Virus record (IMG/VR): IMGVR_UViG_3300044645_001426
Span: 1 to 20,239 of that record
Length of the DNA: 20,239 nt
DNA from: a virus
Reading direction: 5' to 3' (one strand)
The position numbers and the translations under genes were made by a program. This document shows, one piece after another, positions 5,911 to 13,672 of the stretch. Below the pieces are notes generated by a model that saw only the letters and a program-made list of their open reading frames with translations, had not been told where the DNA came from and ran no database searches. Each line of letters starts with the position of its first letter. Position 1 is the stretch's first letter.

Positions 5911-8901
5911 TTATCCTTTACTTAGACTTGGAGTATTACCAGTACTATTATTTACACCAGCAACTGGGAAAGAAATACCTTTACTTCTTCCCATTGGTAC
6001 AGGAACTGGTTTTTCAATAATCATTGGTTGTATTGCAATCATCATACCTCCATCAGCATAAGAAGGATAAGATCTTAGAGATGATACATTTCTGTTTGGA
6101 GATTGTTTTGGAACAACTCCGCCACCTTGATAAGCAACATGAACGTGATCACTATGACCAGATGGTTCATTTCCTGCATGAAGAAGTTCAACTGGTTTAA
6201 CGCCTTTTATCTTATTAAATTCTGCAACTGCTTTCAATATTGGTCCTTGTTCATTAGCATAAGCACCAAGATCAATAGCTCTTCCCTGATAATGCAAAGA
6301 TCCTGGACTATGACCCGAAGTTAAACTATATGGGGGATGTTCCGGATGCCTATGAATGCTACCAGGAACAACTCCTTTTTTCTTCATAAACCTTCCAAGT
6401 TCACCTGCAATTTTGCTACCTGCGGATCCATATCCTTTACCTAAATCCGTTTTAGTAGAAGGAGTAGATTCATCAACTTTACCTTTAACAACTTCTTTAT
6501 TAACTTCTGCCGGCATCAATGTTCCTTTTTTAAACCTACCAATGTTTGCACCTCTTGGTTCAAACCCAAAAGTATGGCCATAACGACTTACCTCTGTAGA
6601 ATTATCAAGATCATCATATTTTTTTTCAAAAGAGTCTGATCTAAAATTATCTCTGGGTCCAACAAAAGTTCTTGCTTTTTCTTGTTTACTTCTATCTAAT
6701 AATGCTGCTGCAATTTTTTCAACAATATTTCCAGTATATCCTTTATATTTTTTAGCAAATGCAATAGCAGTTTCTTTTGAGTTTATTTTTCCCCACTCAT
6801 TAACTCCACCATAGTCACTAACTGGTTGAAACTGACCTGGTTGTAAAATAACTCCCTTTATATTTTTTGGCCATCCAGGTAAAGAAACTCTATTATAAAT
6901 TGCTTGAGCTGCATCAACAGCACCTTGATATCCATCGGTAGGTATTCCATTTTCAAACAGAGCAGCAGTAACTAGTAACCAAAAATCAGGACTTTCTGAA
7001 GTGACCTTTACACTTCCCATACTTCCTGGACTTGTATCAAGTTCTGTTCCCTCTTTTCCTTCCTCTCCTGTAGTATCTTTCTTAAACTCATTATACTTAC
7101 CAGGCATCAATTGCTTTTGAACTTCTCTAATTGCCTCATCAACTTTCTGGTAAATTAGATTATCTAATGCTTTTGTAATACCTTCTGCAGGACCCACTTC
7201 ACTACTTTTAGTGAGATCTCTTGGTTTAATCACACCACCAGTCTGCATTTTAGAGACTTCTTTTTCAATATTCGAAATGCTTGCAGATATTTGTCTATTT
7301 GCAATAGAAGTAATTAGATGTGATATTCCACCACTTAATCCTCTGATTGCATCTTTAGGTAACTTTTGACCTAAAGCAATATCAACAGCACCTCCCATTA
7401 AAGCACCAATACCAAAAGGAATATCCTTAAGAACTTTTGCTGCGTTTGTTAATGCCTTATATGGATTTGGTAGTGCCTTAATTTTTGCTTCTCTTTGTGC
7501 TATCTGTTCTGCACTTGCATTTTCTGGTAGTGGGGGAAGCAAGTTCCACCAAGCACCCTTCTGTTCGCCTTCAATATCAGTTCTTATTGATGGGTCTGGA
7601 TATAATTCACGTATTTTTTTCTTTCCACCAACATCTTTTCCTGGTTGAGATTGCTTTGGTTTAATTTTTGGTGGTCTTCTCTGCGTAATCTTAAGTGTTC
7701 TGGATGGACCACGCCCTTGAGGTTTTCCGCCTCTTGTTACTGAACCGCCACCTTGTTTTCTCTGAACGTTACCTTGTGATTTTTTATTTTCAAATAAAAC
7801 TTCATATAACTTTCCTGCTAGTTCAGCGCCCGCTAATCCACCAATAAAAGTTCCAAATCCAGGAAGAATTAAAGATCCAACAGCACCAAGTAATAAAGTT
7901 CCAACACCTCTAAAAGCAGCTTTACCTGGATTATCTCCAAGAGCCCAAGATAAACCAAATTCAATTAATGCTCCAAGAATTGGAAGTCTTGATAGGGGAC
8001 CTTTTGCTAACCTTAATAATTGTTTAACACCTTGCTTACCAACAACTGCTTGAGCTCCTTTTTTTATTCCAATTCTTGATGCCTGTGCGGTTCTTTGTAT
8101 AATTCCTTTTTTCGCTGCTCTTTTAGTTAATTCTTGTGCGGCACCTTTCCCTACTTCCTTTGCACCTGCTTTTTTAGATGTTTCTTTTGCAATTTTTTCT
8201 GCTTTTAATTGTTTGCCAAAAGCGTCAATCGCTCCCGTAAGAGCCATTCCACCAATCAGAGCATAGTTAATATATTCGTTTAGCTTGCCTGATAGATTAT
8301 CAAAATCTTTCTGTGCTTTATCTCCACCAATACTCTTTGCAATTCCTCTTATCTTATCATAAGCATCATATCCACGTTCAACAAAACTAACAAAAGATGA
8401 AAGAAGAAACTTAAATGTATTCTCTACTACACCATAAACTCCACTAATGAGTTTTACTACACCAAGAAGTTTCGGAAGTTGATCTTGGAACTTAGTAAAT
8501 AACCAACCAAGAGCAGTGAAGAATAAGAACCTTTTAATTCTATCCAAGAAACTCATTCCTGGAACGGAAAGACCAGGTAGATTAAATTTCTTTGCTTCCT
8601 TCGGTGCTTCTAATTTTTCTTCTTCTTTTTTAAATTCTTCTTTCTCTTTTTCTTTTCTTTTGGTTTCTGATTTTTTCTTAGATACTAAAAGATCCGATTG
8701 GAAAAACTTTTCAACCTTAACTAACTTATTGTTTACATCTACTGCATCTTTTTGATTACTTTCATCAAGTAATCCTTTTGTTATTGAAGTACTTTTTTTA
8801 GAGATCTTAAGAGGACTAGTAAAGTTTGACTTTCCAATCTTAGTGATTGATGTGGACTTTGCTGATGGAAGTAACTTAGATGGGTTTGTAATTTTCGCCA
8901 T
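5911..8901 (-). CDS. Tape-measure-like tail protein with SleB-like and M15-like cell-wall hydrolase domains (996 aa)
   Basis: Residues 1-105 are Lys/Ser-rich and charged. A hydrophobic module follows (118-138, with FLFFTALGWLFTKF), then Ala/Gly/Lys-rich helices and further hydrophobic stretches (208-226, 300-370). Residues about 638-785 resemble SleB-type cell wall hydrolases (Hydrolase_2): TAALFENGIP with a candidate catalytic E650, AAQAIYNRV, and VILQPGQFQPV. Residues about 830-925 look like a zinc peptidase of the M15 type: SLHYQGRAIDLG (H870, D877) and HSDHVHVAY (H919, H921). Several short GGG motifs, typical of phage tape-measure proteins, are scattered through it. An AGGA ribosome binding site precedes the ATG, which starts 4 nt after the previous stop. 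I infer a tail-lumen protein that digests peptidoglycan on ejection. Hydrolase domains are fairly clear; the tape-measure label is inference. Confidence 0.68.
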   Translation of the reverse strand: MAKITNPSKLLPSAKSTSITKIGKSNFTSPLKISKKSTSITKGLLDESNQKDAVDVNNKLVKVEKFFQSDLLVSKKKSETKRKEKEKEEFKKEEEKLEAPKEAKKFNLPGLSVPGMSFLDRIKRFLFFTALGWLFTKFQDQLPKLLGVVKLISGVYGVVENTFKFLLSSFVSFVERGYDAYDKIRGIAKSIGGDKAQKDFDNLSGKLNEYINYALIGGMALTGAIDAFGKQLKAEKIAKETSKKAGAKEVGKGAAQELTKRAAKKGIIQRTAQASRIGIKKGAQAVVGKQGVKQLLRLAKGPLSRLPILGALIEFGLSWALGDNPGKAAFRGVGTLLLGAVGSLILPGFGTFIGGLAGAELAGKLYEVLFENKKSQGNVQRKQGGGSVTRGGKPQGRGPSRTLKITQRRPPKIKPKQSQPGKDVGGKKKIRELYPDPSIRTDIEGEQKGAWWNLLPPLPENASAEQIAQREAKIKALPNPYKALTNAAKVLKDIPFGIGALMGGAVDIALGQKLPKDAIRGLSGGISHLITSIANRQISASISNIEKEVSKMQTGGVIKPRDLTKSSEVGPAEGITKALDNLIYQKVDEAIREVQKQLMPGKYNEFKKDTTGEEGKEGTELDTSPGSMGSVKVTSESPDFWLLVTAALFENGIPTDGYQGAVDAAQAIYNRVSLPGWPKNIKGVILQPGQFQPVSDYGGVNEWGKINSKETAIAFAKKYKGYTGNIVEKIAAALLDRSKQEKARTFVGPRDNFRSDSFEKKYDDLDNSTEVSRYGHTFGFEPRGANIGRFKKGTLMPAEVNKEVVKGKVDESTPSTKTDLGKGYGSAGSKIAGELGRFMKKKGVVPGSIHRHPEHPPYSLTSGHSPGSLHYQGRAIDLGAYANEQGPILKAVAEFNKIKGVKPVELLHAGNEPSGHSDHVHVAYQGGGVVPKQSPNRNVSSLRSYPSYADGGMMIAIQPMIIEKPVPVPMGRSKGISFPVAGVNNSTGNTPSLSKG

Positions 8902-8905
8902 TGTG

Positions 8906-11533
8906 CTATCCTACTATTCCTAGAATGCTTGCGGTTTCTGCAATTTGTCTTGCTCCACTTACAGAAACTACAGGGAACACAGGTGCTCTTGAACCTGCAC
9001 CTGAAGAGTTCCCTGCATTCCCAGATCCAGATGCAGATTGTACGATTGGTGGGAGGGTCATTATACCACCACTACCACCTCTAGAAAGAGGAGTAATGTT
9101 TGGTACATTCTTGGATTTCATTCCAACTTTTGCTGGATTGGAGTTACTATCAGTCATAGCAACAAGTTTATCAATTAAAGAAGTTCCAAGACGTGATACA
9201 GTATCTACAGGAAGAACATACTCGCCTGGTTGCAATGCAGTAAGTTGTCTGTCTGCAGTTGCTCCGCGAATGTTAAATCCACTATTTTCCTTGACTAAGC
9301 CACGGATTGGTCCTCCACCTTGCTTTCTTGGTAATGGTTCTCCTCTCATATTAGAAGCACCACTTCCCCTAAAGTTTCTCCAAGTCCCACCAACACCAAA
9401 ATTCTTAAGTAAGAATGCTTCGTCGCCGATTGCCTTCAAAGTCTCTGGATTTACTCCGCTTCTTTGTCCTTGAATATAAGTTTTTTCTAAACTCTCAGCA
9501 GTAACTTCTCCACCACCTTGAAGCATCAGTGGTCTATCAATTCCAGGTCTTCTATATCTATCACCAGGAGCATATTTAATTTTTGGACTTTTTGGATTCG
9601 GGTTATATGGATATGGACTTTCTCTAAAACTTTTTAAATCACTCCATTCTCTTAAATCAAATCCAGGCATTCTATAGTTTTCTATTGGTTTGCCCGGTAA
9701 TTTATCAGCAAAAGTTCTTTTATCCCTAAAAGGATTAATTCTTTCCCACCAAGGTCTTACGTTATTATCAATATTTCTATTTTTGAATCCTTCCAAATCA
9801 AATAATCTTTTTCTTGCGTCTCCTATAGCATATTTTAATGGCGTCCTAGCATTATTAAGTGCATCCCAAGCAGAACGGGAAGAAGTCATCTTTGGACTTC
9901 CAATTTTTACCTGAATATTACCACCACCCTGCATACCAACAATACCACCACCTTGTTTTCTTGGTAGTGGTTCTCCTCTCATATCAGAAGCACCACTTCC
10001 CTTGAAGTTTTTCCAGGTTCCACCGACACCGAAATTCTTAAGTAAGAATGCTTCATCACCGATTGCTTTTAATGCATCAGGATTCATTCCAGACTTTTGT
10101 CCCTGTATATAAGTTCTTTCTAAACTTTCTGGTGTAATATTACCAACAATACCACCAGTATTATACATCTTACCCATCTTGGGTTTATTCGCACCAGGAC
10201 CACCATACTGGCGATTTAAAGCAAGAAGATTATTCGCACCTACAGCATCAACTGTCTTTTTATTCATTACAACTTCGCCTGGTTGAGCGATAATCATCTG
10301 AGTATCAGGACCAAATCCAGATACTTTTTGTCCTGTTGTGCTGTCTATACCATCATAACCAGTCGATAGTTTAGGTACTTCTCCTCCAGCATTAAACATT
10401 GCTCCTGGAACTGGAGCAACAATTCCCTGCTGTTGTTGTCCTGTTGTTAGTTCTTGTTGAGCGAAAAATCCACCAAGTTTCTTATACCAAGGAGCTCCAG
10501 GATCTTTCTGAGTTGCCGCTGCGCTTTCTCTTTGCTTATCAAGTTCTGGTTTTAATCTCTCTCTTTCCCCTGTTCTTGCTATGGTTCCAGCAACAGCAGT
10601 TGTTGTAATTAAAGTTGCTAATGGATTAGCGGCTGCAAATCTTCCTAGTCCAGCAACTGCTTTTGCTATTCTTGGTATTAACTTTACTAATTTACCAGCA
10701 AAAGATCCAACTATTTTTAAAGTTACTCTAACAAATTTTCCGAAAGGAGTAAAGAAAAGAATAGCAGCACCAAGTAATGTGGGCCACCAGTCCTTTAAAA
10801 ATCTTCCGAGAACTTGAATTTTCTTTTTATTTGCTGGGTCACCTAACCAACCCATCAACTGAGTAAATGCTCTACCAAGTAAAGTGAAGAATATAAATTT
10901 CCAGATACGATCTATGATACTTTGAAAAGGAGCAAGCATCTTCTTTGCTGCTCCAGAGATCGCAGAGATACCTTTTCTAAATCCTTCAAGACCTGCTTCT
11001 CTTTTCCCTCTTTTCTCAGTTTCTTTTTCTTTTCTTTCTTGATCTGATTGCTTCTTATCAAACTTAAACTTTGATGCTAAAACACCTAAGATAGAATTTA
11101 GGGTTTTTTTGATCTGATTGAAACCACCTACACTTTCTTCTTTTTTCTCAGTAACATCTTTTACATTAGTTGGTATAATTTTTTGAGGAACTATCTTTGC
11201 AGTTTTTGCTTTTACAATTGCTCCTGTTTTTGGCGATGCTCCACCAACACCAGCACCAGTAGTACCAGCAGAAACTTTTGCTTTTGATGTCTTAACTTTA
11301 AATCTTAATCCTTTATCTTTTATTGCACGAACTTTTTTAAGTTCTTCCCTTAAAAGTTCGTCTTCTTCTCTTGGAAGTTCTTTACCAACTAATCTTCCAA
11401 TTGCTAATTTCTTTTTTAATATATTAAAATAAGTCTGATAATCTAATTCAACGCCAGGATTTAATCCAAGTAACCGTAAAATTACTTCATCGATTGCTTC
11501 GGTTTTTACTTTGTTACTTGGATTACTAACCAT
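8906..11533 (-). CDS. Tape-measure-like tail protein (875 aa)
   Basis: The N-terminal 85 residues are helical and charged. A long Lys-rich linker and a KRE-rich helix (155-185) lead to a hydrophobic module at 204-228 (IIDRIWKFIFFTLLGRAFTQ), then hydrophobic helices at about 245-320. The C-terminal half has GGG turns and the phage tape-measure signature PGE-x-V followed by V-x-x-x-G-x-x-x-L (residues 418-440, and again at 769-790). A 65-residue segment occurs twice (466-530 and 677-741). The gene overlaps the 59-aa ORF by 8 nt. Position after a tube-type protein and gp26/chaperone-like genes mirrors lambda G-T-H, which supports a tape-measure role. T4 gp29 is shorter (590 aa); I could not align to it by eye. 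Confidence 0.65.
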   Translation of the reverse strand: MVSNPSNKVKTEAIDEVILRLLGLNPGVELDYQTYFNILKKKLAIGRLVGKELPREEDELLREELKKVRAIKDKGLRFKVKTSKAKVSAGTTGAGVGGASPKTGAIVKAKTAKIVPQKIIPTNVKDVTEKKEESVGGFNQIKKTLNSILGVLASKFKFDKKQSDQERKEKETEKRGKREAGLEGFRKGISAISGAAKKMLAPFQSIIDRIWKFIFFTLLGRAFTQLMGWLGDPANKKKIQVLGRFLKDWWPTLLGAAILFFTPFGKFVRVTLKIVGSFAGKLVKLIPRIAKAVAGLGRFAAANPLATLITTTAVAGTIARTGERERLKPELDKQRESAAATQKDPGAPWYKKLGGFFAQQELTTGQQQQGIVAPVPGAMFNAGGEVPKLSTGYDGIDSTTGQKVSGFGPDTQMIIAQPGEVVMNKKTVDAVGANNLLALNRQYGGPGANKPKMGKMYNTGGIVGNITPESLERTYIQGQKSGMNPDALKAIGDEAFLLKNFGVGGTWKNFKGSGASDMRGEPLPRKQGGGIVGMQGGGNIQVKIGSPKMTSSRSAWDALNNARTPLKYAIGDARKRLFDLEGFKNRNIDNNVRPWWERINPFRDKRTFADKLPGKPIENYRMPGFDLREWSDLKSFRESPYPYNPNPKSPKIKYAPGDRYRRPGIDRPLMLQGGGEVTAESLEKTYIQGQRSGVNPETLKAIGDEAFLLKNFGVGGTWRNFRGSGASNMRGEPLPRKQGGGPIRGLVKENSGFNIRGATADRQLTALQPGEYVLPVDTVSRLGTSLIDKLVAMTDSNSNPAKVGMKSKNVPNITPLSRGGSGGIMTLPPIVQSASGSGNAGNSSGAGSRAPVFPVVSVSGARQIAETASILGIVG
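9311..9505 (-). repeat. Internal duplication, copy 2 (codes residues 677-741 of the 875-aa protein)
   Basis: This 195-bp segment encodes 65 residues that match the copy at 9944..10138 at 55 positions. Both begin near (V/I)T-x-ESLE, include AIGDEAFLLKNFGVGGTW and end in EPLPRKQGGG. Third-position changes are frequent, so the duplication is not recent. Confidence 0.9.
9944..10138 (-). repeat. Internal duplication, copy 1 (codes residues 466-530 of the 875-aa protein)
   Basis: Partner of the 9311..9505 segment. The 10 amino-acid differences are mostly conservative (K/R, D/E, I/V). The two copies are separated by 146 residues of a different, Pro/Arg-rich sequence. Confidence 0.9.
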
Positions 11534-11705
11534 TTGCTCTCTGTTGTGCTTTTTGCTCTTCTTCTTCTATATGTTGCTTTAATAAAATTGTATAGATGTC
11601 TCTTTCAAAGGGCATCATATTTTCAATTTCAGTAAGACTCCATTTATGATATTGAATCAGGGCAAAATTTAACTTGAAGTAACTCTCCAAGTCCATGTGA
11701 CTCAT
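11526..11705 (-). CDS. Small tail-assembly chaperone-like ORF (59 aa), possible -1 frameshift extension of gp26
   Basis: ATG at 11705, stop TAG at 11526-11528. The protein starts MSHMDLESYFKLNFALIQYH, continues with KWSLTEIENMMPFERDIY and ends in a Glu/Gln-rich helix. The layout of a Tyr/His helix followed by a W-S-x-x-E-I-x-x-M-P-x-x-E-R segment recalls the second (T) part of G/GT tail assembly chaperones. T4 has gene 51 in this position, but T4 gp51 is much longer, so I do not assign that symbol. The ORF lies in the -1 frame relative to gp26, its ATG comes 2 nt after the gp26 stop, and there is no Shine-Dalgarno sequence. It overlaps the next gene by 8 nt. It may be made alone by coupling, or as part of a gp26 fusion. 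Confidence 0.7.
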   Translation of the reverse strand: MSHMDLESYFKLNFALIQYHKWSLTEIENMMPFERDIYTILLKQHIEEEEQKAQQRANG

Positions 11706-11707
11706 AC

Positions 11708-12427
11708 TTACGCGAAAAAACTTGATAACCCTTCAAGAACAACTTCACTTTCAACTTCAGTATTTGGATTTTTAATAGTAACTTTATGAGATAGTTTAGG
11801 CATTGTTTCAAAGAACTTTTCAATATCTTTGAACTGAGTGGAATTCATTTGTTCTAAGAACTCTAATATTTCTTTCTTAGAAACATCAGCAGAAGCCCAA
11901 ACTTCATCTTCCGTATAAATCTTATCAATACAAGAAGCAATTAAATCAAATGATTGATCCATTGTATTATCAGCGGATAAATCAAAGTTACTCTTAATAA
12001 ATTGATCCAGTGATGGATATTTCATTTCCATCATAATCGAATCATCAACTTTGATTTGTTTATTATGATCCGGGTTCTTTTGAACCTTAATATCATCAAC
12101 GTTGATTTTTACAGGAACTGTAGTAGTCTCATCATCAGGACAGATAAGATTGACTTCAATTTCTTCACCGACTGATTTTCCACGAATATTCAAGAACAAA
12201 TATTCAATATCAAAAGTAGGTAATGCTTCTACTTTAATACCCTTTGTTTCAATGCAGTTTTTAATAACAGTTTTAATTGCTGTAGTAATTTGTTTGGTGT
12301 CTTCAGATTCCAAAGCGAGAACCAAAAGTTTTTCTTCCTTTACCAAAAATGGACGATACTTAATTGTTTGTCCGGTAGATGGAAGTTCAAGTTCATACGT
12401 TGGTGTAGAAATGCGAGGTAATACCAT
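11708..12427 (-). CDS. 26: Baseplate hub assembly protein gp26-like (239 aa)
   Basis: Starts MVLPRISTPTYELELPSTG and continues with KYRPFLVKEEKLL, the N-terminal pattern I associate with gp26 of T4-like cyanophages. T4 gp26 is 208 aa and is needed for hub assembly; it is not clearly a stable virion component. I chose ATG 12427 over the TTG at 12439 because the conserved start fits it. A weak late box AATAAATA lies at 12456..12463. The gene ends in AGT TTT TTC GCG TAA, which contains a T TTT TTC slippery heptamer (11720..11714) in the correct frame for a -1 shift into the following ORF. Shifted product would be 300 aa. The chaperone role is inferred from gene order and the frameshift site. Confidence 0.75.
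   Translation of the reverse strand: MVLPRISTPTYELELPSTGQTIKYRPFLVKEEKLLVLALESEDTKQITTAIKTVIKNCIETKGIKVEALPTFDIEYLFLNIRGKSVGEEIEVNLICPDDETTTVPVKINVDDIKVQKNPDHNKQIKVDDSIMMEMKYPSLDQFIKSNFDLSADNTMDQSFDLIASCIDKIYTEDEVWASADVSKKEILEFLEQMNSTQFKDIEKFFETMPKLSHKVTIKNPNTEVESEVVLEGLSSFFA
11714..11720 (-). promoter_or_regulatory. Candidate programmed -1 frameshift site, T TTT TTC
   Basis: The heptamer fits X XXY YYZ in the gp26 frame, three codons from its end. A -1 slip would read TTT TTT CGC GTA AGT ATG and enter the 59-aa ORF without meeting a stop. I found no strong stimulatory stem nearby; only a 5-bp ACTTG/CAAGT stem starts 21 nt downstream, which is weak and rather far. Confidence 0.5.
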
Positions 12428-12478: not shown

Positions 12479-13672
12479 TTAGAATAAAGATATACTGGGG
12501 TTATCAGCAACAGCACCAGTTCCAGCATTTTTATTGTAATTAGGTTCTGATGCAGTTTGCGTTGATACTCTAGATAACTCCTGAGATCCTGCAGATGTTC
12601 TCTGAGATCCTGCAGATGTTCTCTGAGATCCCGAATTGTTTCCTCTAACTAAAGTGGCTGAACCAGATCCAGTTGGTTGTCCAAGTAACGTAGAAGGAAC
12701 TCCAGGAGCAGTACTCTGTGGAGCAAGTGGAGATCCTCCAAACGAAGGAATTCCTGCAGCAGGTCCACCAAACACTGGATTTGTGAATTCTGGAATTGCG
12801 GGAAGAGTCGAAGGAACATTTGGATTTCCTATAGATGGAAGTCCTGGTACTGGTGTTGGTCCAGGTTCTGTTGGTCTACCTGCCTTCACTACTTTTCTCA
12901 CATAACGAATATATGTAAATGATACCGTACATTTTAATAGTTGCGAGGAATCATAAGAAACAGGCATTGATGTAATACTAATCGGATACGCTCGGATAAA
13001 CTTGTATTCTAAAGCAGTTCCAAAAACATCTCTTTCAAATTTAGTAATATATAAAGCATCTGTTTGATAATCATTTGGAAAATTTACACGATAAAAATAA
13101 TTTCTAGTTTCTAAAGCAGTTTGTAAATTTTCCCCAGCGCAGTAAGAAATCCACCTTTCAAAGAAAGTTATAATATCATAATTACGATCTACATAAAAAG
13201 TAAAATCAATTCTATCATCATATTGTTTTCTGTATGCGTGCCTTTCAGTAACTCCAGTATGATCATCATTGATTTCGTTCGTCATCATTGAGGACCCTGG
13301 AAGAGATGCCTCAGAACAAGAAAGTTCAATGAGTTCTTGACTCGTGGGGTTATTATAATTAACTCCACCTTGTTGTATAAACGCTAACGCAGGTCCAGGT
13401 GGTTGAAATTTACACACATAATGAGATGTTAAGGCATTATTTAATAGAAGTGCCTTAACTTTAAAATTACTTACTATAGATGGAGTTGGACTACCACCAG
13501 ATGAAGATGATGGCGAATCACCGGGCGTAGAAGATGTAGGATTTGGAACACCAGGTGCTGGAGTTGGTCCAAGTGGATTTTGATCTAATCCAGGCAATCC
13601 AGGCACACTCGGATCAACACCAAACTCAGGATTTTGAAACTGATCGGATGAAGTTACCGGGAATCTAGCCAC
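12479..13672 (-). CDS. Tail-tube-fold protein, possibly gp54-like tube initiator, with low-complexity ends (397 aa)
   Basis: The core (about residues 68-262) has the look of a gp19/gp54 tail-tube domain: SHYVCKF, ELSCSEASLPG, YRKQYDDRIDFTFYVDRNY, FFERWISY, YITKFERDV, YKFIRAYPISITSMPVSYD and KCTVSFTYIRY. Flanks of about 65 residues (N) and 130 residues (C) are rich in Pro, Gly, Ser and Thr and include tandem GSQRTSA repeats. The start is GTG at 13672, because a stop lies in frame just upstream; no Shine-Dalgarno sequence is visible. It is followed by gp26 and tape-measure-like genes, the usual place for a tube protein. The main tube gp19 is normally beside the sheath gene, so this is more likely a tube initiator or paralogue. 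Confidence 0.6.
   Translation of the reverse strand: MARFPVTSSDQFQNPEFGVDPSVPGLPGLDQNPLGPTPAPGVPNPTSSTPGDSPSSSSGGSPTPSIVSNFKVKALLLNNALTSHYVCKFQPPGPALAFIQQGGVNYNNPTSQELIELSCSEASLPGSSMMTNEINDDHTGVTERHAYRKQYDDRIDFTFYVDRNYDIITFFERWISYCAGENLQTALETRNYFYRVNFPNDYQTDALYITKFERDVFGTALEYKFIRAYPISITSMPVSYDSSQLLKCTVSFTYIRYVRKVVKAGRPTEPGPTPVPGLPSIGNPNVPSTLPAIPEFTNPVFGGPAAGIPSFGGSPLAPQSTAPGVPSTLLGQPTGSGSATLVRGNNSGSQRTSAGSQRTSAGSQELSRVSTQTASEPNYNKNAGTGAVADNPSISLF
12581..12631 (-). repeat. 21-bp tandem repeat, two full copies and a partial third
   Basis: The units 12581..12601 and 12602..12622 are identical (plus-strand CTGAGATCCTGCAGATGTTCT) and a third begins at 12623. They keep the frame and encode GSQRTSA-GSQRTSA-GSQ in the C-terminal low-complexity tail of the tube-like protein. 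Confidence 0.92.

Follow-up and report, generated by a model that had tools for sequence, protein, structure and literature searches.

The gp26 and gp51 reading frames of T4-like cyanophages very probably form one tail assembly chaperone gene with a -1 frameshifted long form

The window, a 20-kb IMG/VR virus record of 20,239 nucleotides, carried a single copy of gp26 on the minus strand (positions 11708–12427) coding for a 239 aa protein of Pfam PF12322 (T4_baseplate; E 1.8e-77) and PHROG 150, the predicted short-form tail assembly chaperone and equivalent of lambda gpG. As the earlier note had described, the gene ended in AGT TTT TTC GCG TAA and placed a T_TTT_TTC slippery heptamer (11720–11714, minus strand) in the correct phase. 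The following open reading frame (ORF), gp51 (59 aa plus stop; 11526–11705, minus strand), lay in the -1 frame, was open through the heptamer, and its product was collinear with the C-terminal end of T4-type gp51. A slip at the heptamer would read a -1 extension of 62 aa (11526–11714, minus strand) that matched the baseplate hub assembly catalyst family PHROG 634 (E 1.2e-27) and is the candidate equivalent of the lambda T-part, giving the coding capacity for a fusion of 238 + 62 = 300 aa beside the 239 aa form with a predicted junction of ...GLSSFFRVSMSHMDL, exactly as anticipated. The gp51 ATG was situated 2 nt past the gp26 stop with no Shine-Dalgarno (SD)-like sequence beside it. The nearest such sequence was GAAGGG (11734–11729, minus strand), a putative upstream stimulator at which anti-SD pairing energy reached its regional minimum, and its AGGG cannot be the gp51 ribosome-binding site because it is too distant (~23 nt) from the ATG. 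Across 6370 codon positions in 19 window ORFs, 34 in-phase X_XXY_YYZ motifs (Y = A/T) were counted, and T_TTT_TTC occurred in phase only once, at the end of gp26.

The flanking genes had been described as tube-like and tape-measure-like. The first description was borne out, as the upstream gene (12479–13672, minus strand) matched PHROG 45 (E 1.3e-32) and Pfam PF23849 (Phage_TTP_2; E 6.6e-14), and the second was weak by sequence, with the 875 aa probable tape measure protein encoded directly after gp51 (8906–11533, minus strand) matching PHROG 37649 at E 0.0055. In phage phiM12, a gene near the same position carried an annotation of similarity to tape measure proteins. Elsewhere in the window, a gene for a 996 aa protein carrying a Hydrolase_2 cell-wall hydrolase domain (5911–8901) adjoined the probable tape measure gene, and the tail-tube-like protein contained short repeats (GSQRTSAGSQRTSAGSQ) close to its C-terminus (12580–12640).

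Comparison with relatives revealed strong conservation of the junction. A close set comprising 80 IMG/VR relatives (71–88% identity), S-PM2, SynMITS9220M01, and the window yielded 81 distinct junctions, all of which contained NNT TTT TTC with gp51 in the -1 frame. Codons 237–238 of gp26 were TTT TTC in all 77 close relatives compared, and the preceding Ser codon ended in T in 77/77 vs. 61% elsewhere in gp26. Only four of 97 conserved degenerate columns used a single codon; two of the four were the heptamer codons, and F238 was the sole one among them fixed on TTC. Phe-Phe pairs elsewhere in the close-set gp26 genes were encoded by TTC TTT (63) or TTT TTT (17) and never by TTT TTC. The peptide patterns used for fetching relatives exclude the terminal Phe-Phe site and therefore the conservation of the heptamer is not a retrieval artefact. 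Judged by this codon usage, the in-phase X_XXY_YYZ heptamer at the end of gp26 is under selection.

The alignment across relatives proposed in the earlier note was extended to a wider set of 200 scorable loci with identity down to ~28%, and the heptamer and -1 relation were kept over ~28–88% protein identity. Relatives lacking the slippery run or carrying gp51 in another frame had been named as the outcome that would speak against frameshifting; gp51 was detected at 199 of the 200 loci and was in the -1 frame in all 199, and T_TTT_TTC or T_TTT_TTT was present at every locus except in two Vibrio ackermannviruses. The former heptamer was kept in phiW-14, YB07, AS-yj, phiWae14, PX29, VH7D, 65.2, X1, and a Desulfovibrio phage, and the latter occurred in phages C48C1 and phiM12. 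Few loci emerged from two scans aimed at distant relatives.

An in-frame ATG was found 2–14 nt past the gp26 stop in most relatives, including the window, and it occupied the same place in 49 of the 81 close junctions, as would be expected if the frameshift fusion were accompanied by some free gp51 where an ATG exists. Such a dual output is compatible with the frameshift explanation, adding a third product only, and is considered improbable: 32 of the 81 junctions had another codon at that position and, since the ATG-ATG region is also part of the hairpin past the stop, ATG retention need not imply initiation. The window retains its gp51 ATG and could therefore still initiate gp51 separately. 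A far less likely option is that gp51 is solely a separate small protein, reinitiated at its own ATG, with the T run incidental. The ATGs just past the stop fit this option, as do TAATG overlaps in ackermannviruses, but no start codon was present in at least 25 of the 156 distinct junctions (25 without ATG, GTG, or TTG in the -1 frame before the conserved core; GTG or TTG were the sole starts in 14 further junctions), and explaining this absence on a 165-tip gp26 tree took no fewer than 10 changes. In phages without a gp51 start codon, frameshifting is therefore the sole evident route to gp51, and the gene was left unannotated in, for example, AS-yj and 65.2. The fixation of the heptamer at synonymous sites, the joined protein encoded by T4, and the lack of an SD sequence within range of the gp51 ATG also argue against an exclusively separate gp51.

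Two candidate stimulators of slippage were identified. The best anti-SD match started ~15 nt before the heptamer (minimum 8–15 nt upstream) with a mean pairing energy of -6.4 kcal/mol over 167 junctions, compared with ~0 averaged over all positions. This SD-like site overlaps conserved Glu-Gly codons and coding constraint therefore contributes to it; the pairing of GAA-GGG and GAG-GGH codons as a sign of selection on the site was not significant after counting relatedness. Past the stop, relatives contained a hairpin, for example GGTCC-ATAT-GGACC or GGTTC-ATAT-GAACC, with both-side changes in 5/5 pairs (29 cells vs. 10.8 in shuffles), and the junction had the lowest mean folding z-score within the scanned region. 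Several relatives without an ATG at the start position had a longer stem. Hairpins of example relatives ranged from -9.7 to -14.5 kcal/mol, compared with -4.5 kcal/mol for the corresponding position in the window (11689–11703, minus strand), where the stem-loop was no better than shuffles (z 0.26) and its role as a stimulator is unsupported. The putative stimulators are thus both present at the family level, with the SD-like site alone in the window. An alternative in which RNA polymerase, and not the ribosome, slips on the T run (8 T in some relatives) to generate the long form is barely credible, as six T is generally considered short for transcriptional slippage and the codon phase, upstream SD-like site, and downstream hairpin are translational features.

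The predicted fusion was collinear over its whole length with T4 gp51, which is one in-frame protein. In hhalign, the 300 aa fusion profile and T4-type gp51 aligned across the junction (E 4e-20; 245 columns in global mode), and T4-type gp26 aligned with the short form. T4 gp26 and T4 gp51 both matched the gp26 family, and T4 gp51 matched the gp51 family as well. On these alignments, the locus has the coding capacity for a short form and an N-terminally identical long form, of which T4 gp51 is a natural example. T4 gp26 also weakly matched the gp28 family (PHROG 1140, E 9e-4; L085:7803–8429 and 10349–10882), so a third relative may exist in gp28, whose gene directly precedes tape measure gene 29.

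The AlphaFold model of the window gp26 (pLDDT 86) had as its top three matches among 682 PDB chains 2OB9 (Z 7.9), the HK97 tail assembly chaperone, and the related 3FGX (Z 7.9) and 3KLU (Z 7.3), both of which are chaperones (PMC9603447). The matches spanned 84–86 residues within the first 96, suggesting with moderate confidence that gp26 has the HK97 gp13-type chaperone fold. A Foldseek search alone with the gp26 model gave nothing significant, a second comparison of the T4-type gp51 model with the PDB listed no chaperone and nothing above Z 4.8, a search by sequence found no solved structures for gp26 or T4 gp51, and an NCBIfam search gave nothing over the cut-off. The gp26 model also resembled 5IR0 (Z 5.4), ORF19 of a Vibrio cholerae PICI-like element, and by this structural likeness a satellite may carry a chaperone-like protein.

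Relatives differed in how the two forms were encoded. In T4, the long (gp51) and short (gp26) genes are separate and divergent, and a divergent short/long pair was also found in Aeromonas phage 31, Proteus phiP4-3, and the RB49-type phage kvi. RB43 carried long (gp51-type) and short (gp26-type) genes in tandem (L211:2501–3794), perhaps an intermediate between the single frameshifted gene and the T4 divergent pair. Four Vibrio ackermannviruses lacked the classic heptamer, having CTT TT(C/T) or GTT TTT with the -1 relation kept. The gp26 stop and gp51 start overlapped as TAATG in these Vibrio ackermannviruses (L090 ~3579, L091 ~3570, L209 ~3175, and L215 ~3175), which suggests coupled reinitiation instead of or alongside frameshifting. 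A tentative proposal, for which the odds are a little short of even, is that T4-type phages have three interchangeable means of setting the short:long ratio: a -1 frameshift accompanied by an SD-like site and covarying hairpin in Kyanoviridae and others, duplication into separate genes (tandem in RB43 and divergent in T4), and, among Vibrio ackermannviruses, perhaps stop/start-coupled reinitiation. In one IMG/VR contig, the reading frame of a T4-type gp51 copy was broken (L225:2001–2746), reflecting a sequencing error or a lesion.

The preferred reading, with a probability of about 0.92, is that gp26 and the gp51 ORF are one two-form tail assembly chaperone gene with the long form made via a -1 slip. 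Based on the sequence comparisons, a one-base backward slip of ribosomes where gp26 ends is very probable and would give an additional longer protein. The majority would terminate at the gp26 stop to yield the 239 aa short form while a minority would slip on T_TTT_TTC to yield the 300 aa gp26-gp51 long form. The slip is probably promoted by the AGGG ahead of the heptamer and, among relatives, also by the small hairpin beyond the stop. On the lambda model, the tape measure protein would be coated by many copies of the short form and few of the long one, whose gp51 tail would recruit tube or hub proteins. We infer the slippage itself, the slip rate, and the chaperone role.

The slippery heptamer of lambda G/GT is generally known to differ from T_TTT_TTC. 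Lambda produces a short form and a minor -1 extended form from genes adjoining the tape measure gene, as predicted for the window, where the next gene is a probable tape measure gene. A review describes G-T frameshifting as conserved in phages with long tails “except T4” (PMC5009743). The two forms come from two separate genes in T4 and its near relatives, in contrast to the predicted -1 site of the window, and T4 gp26 and gp51 are listed in a review as hub assembly chaperones with gp51 absent from the final particle (PMC3004832). A chaperone frameshift in the Vandenendeviridae (Pseudomonas phage Adele) rests on comparable evidence, the -1 frame being open in all genomes with an invariant poly-T motif, although this is another phage family and the motif is GTTTTT (PMC12846349). 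According to citing papers, Vladimirov et al. (2022; Virology) identified the T4-like chaperone genes (PMC10274946; PMC12846349), which belong to the same protein family as that of the window with short and long forms; these genes are described as containing poly-T slippery signals (PMC12846349), with a short gene plus a long fusion gene replacing frameshifting in some T4-like phages (PMC10274946). The literature searched, in which Vladimirov et al. (2022) was represented by citing papers, contained no direct earlier report of the cyanophage site. The suggestion that gp26 and its partner form a G/GT-type chaperone system, consistent with the collinearity with T4 gp51 and the predicted gp26 fold, is supported for T4-like gp26/gp51 and, as those papers present it, was largely anticipated by Vladimirov et al. 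(2022); possibly new are the layout of the stimulators and the finding that gp51 start codons were lost repeatedly.

In an abundant marine phage group, a pair annotated as “baseplate hub subunit” and “hub assembly catalyst” would become a single frameshifted chaperone gene, of which gene callers miss gp51 where the start codon is absent. The two hub-assembly genes of T4 would be tied to the lambda G/GT system, and the relatives would offer a natural set of stimulators in which the frameshift rate could be compared with the two-gene solution of T4.
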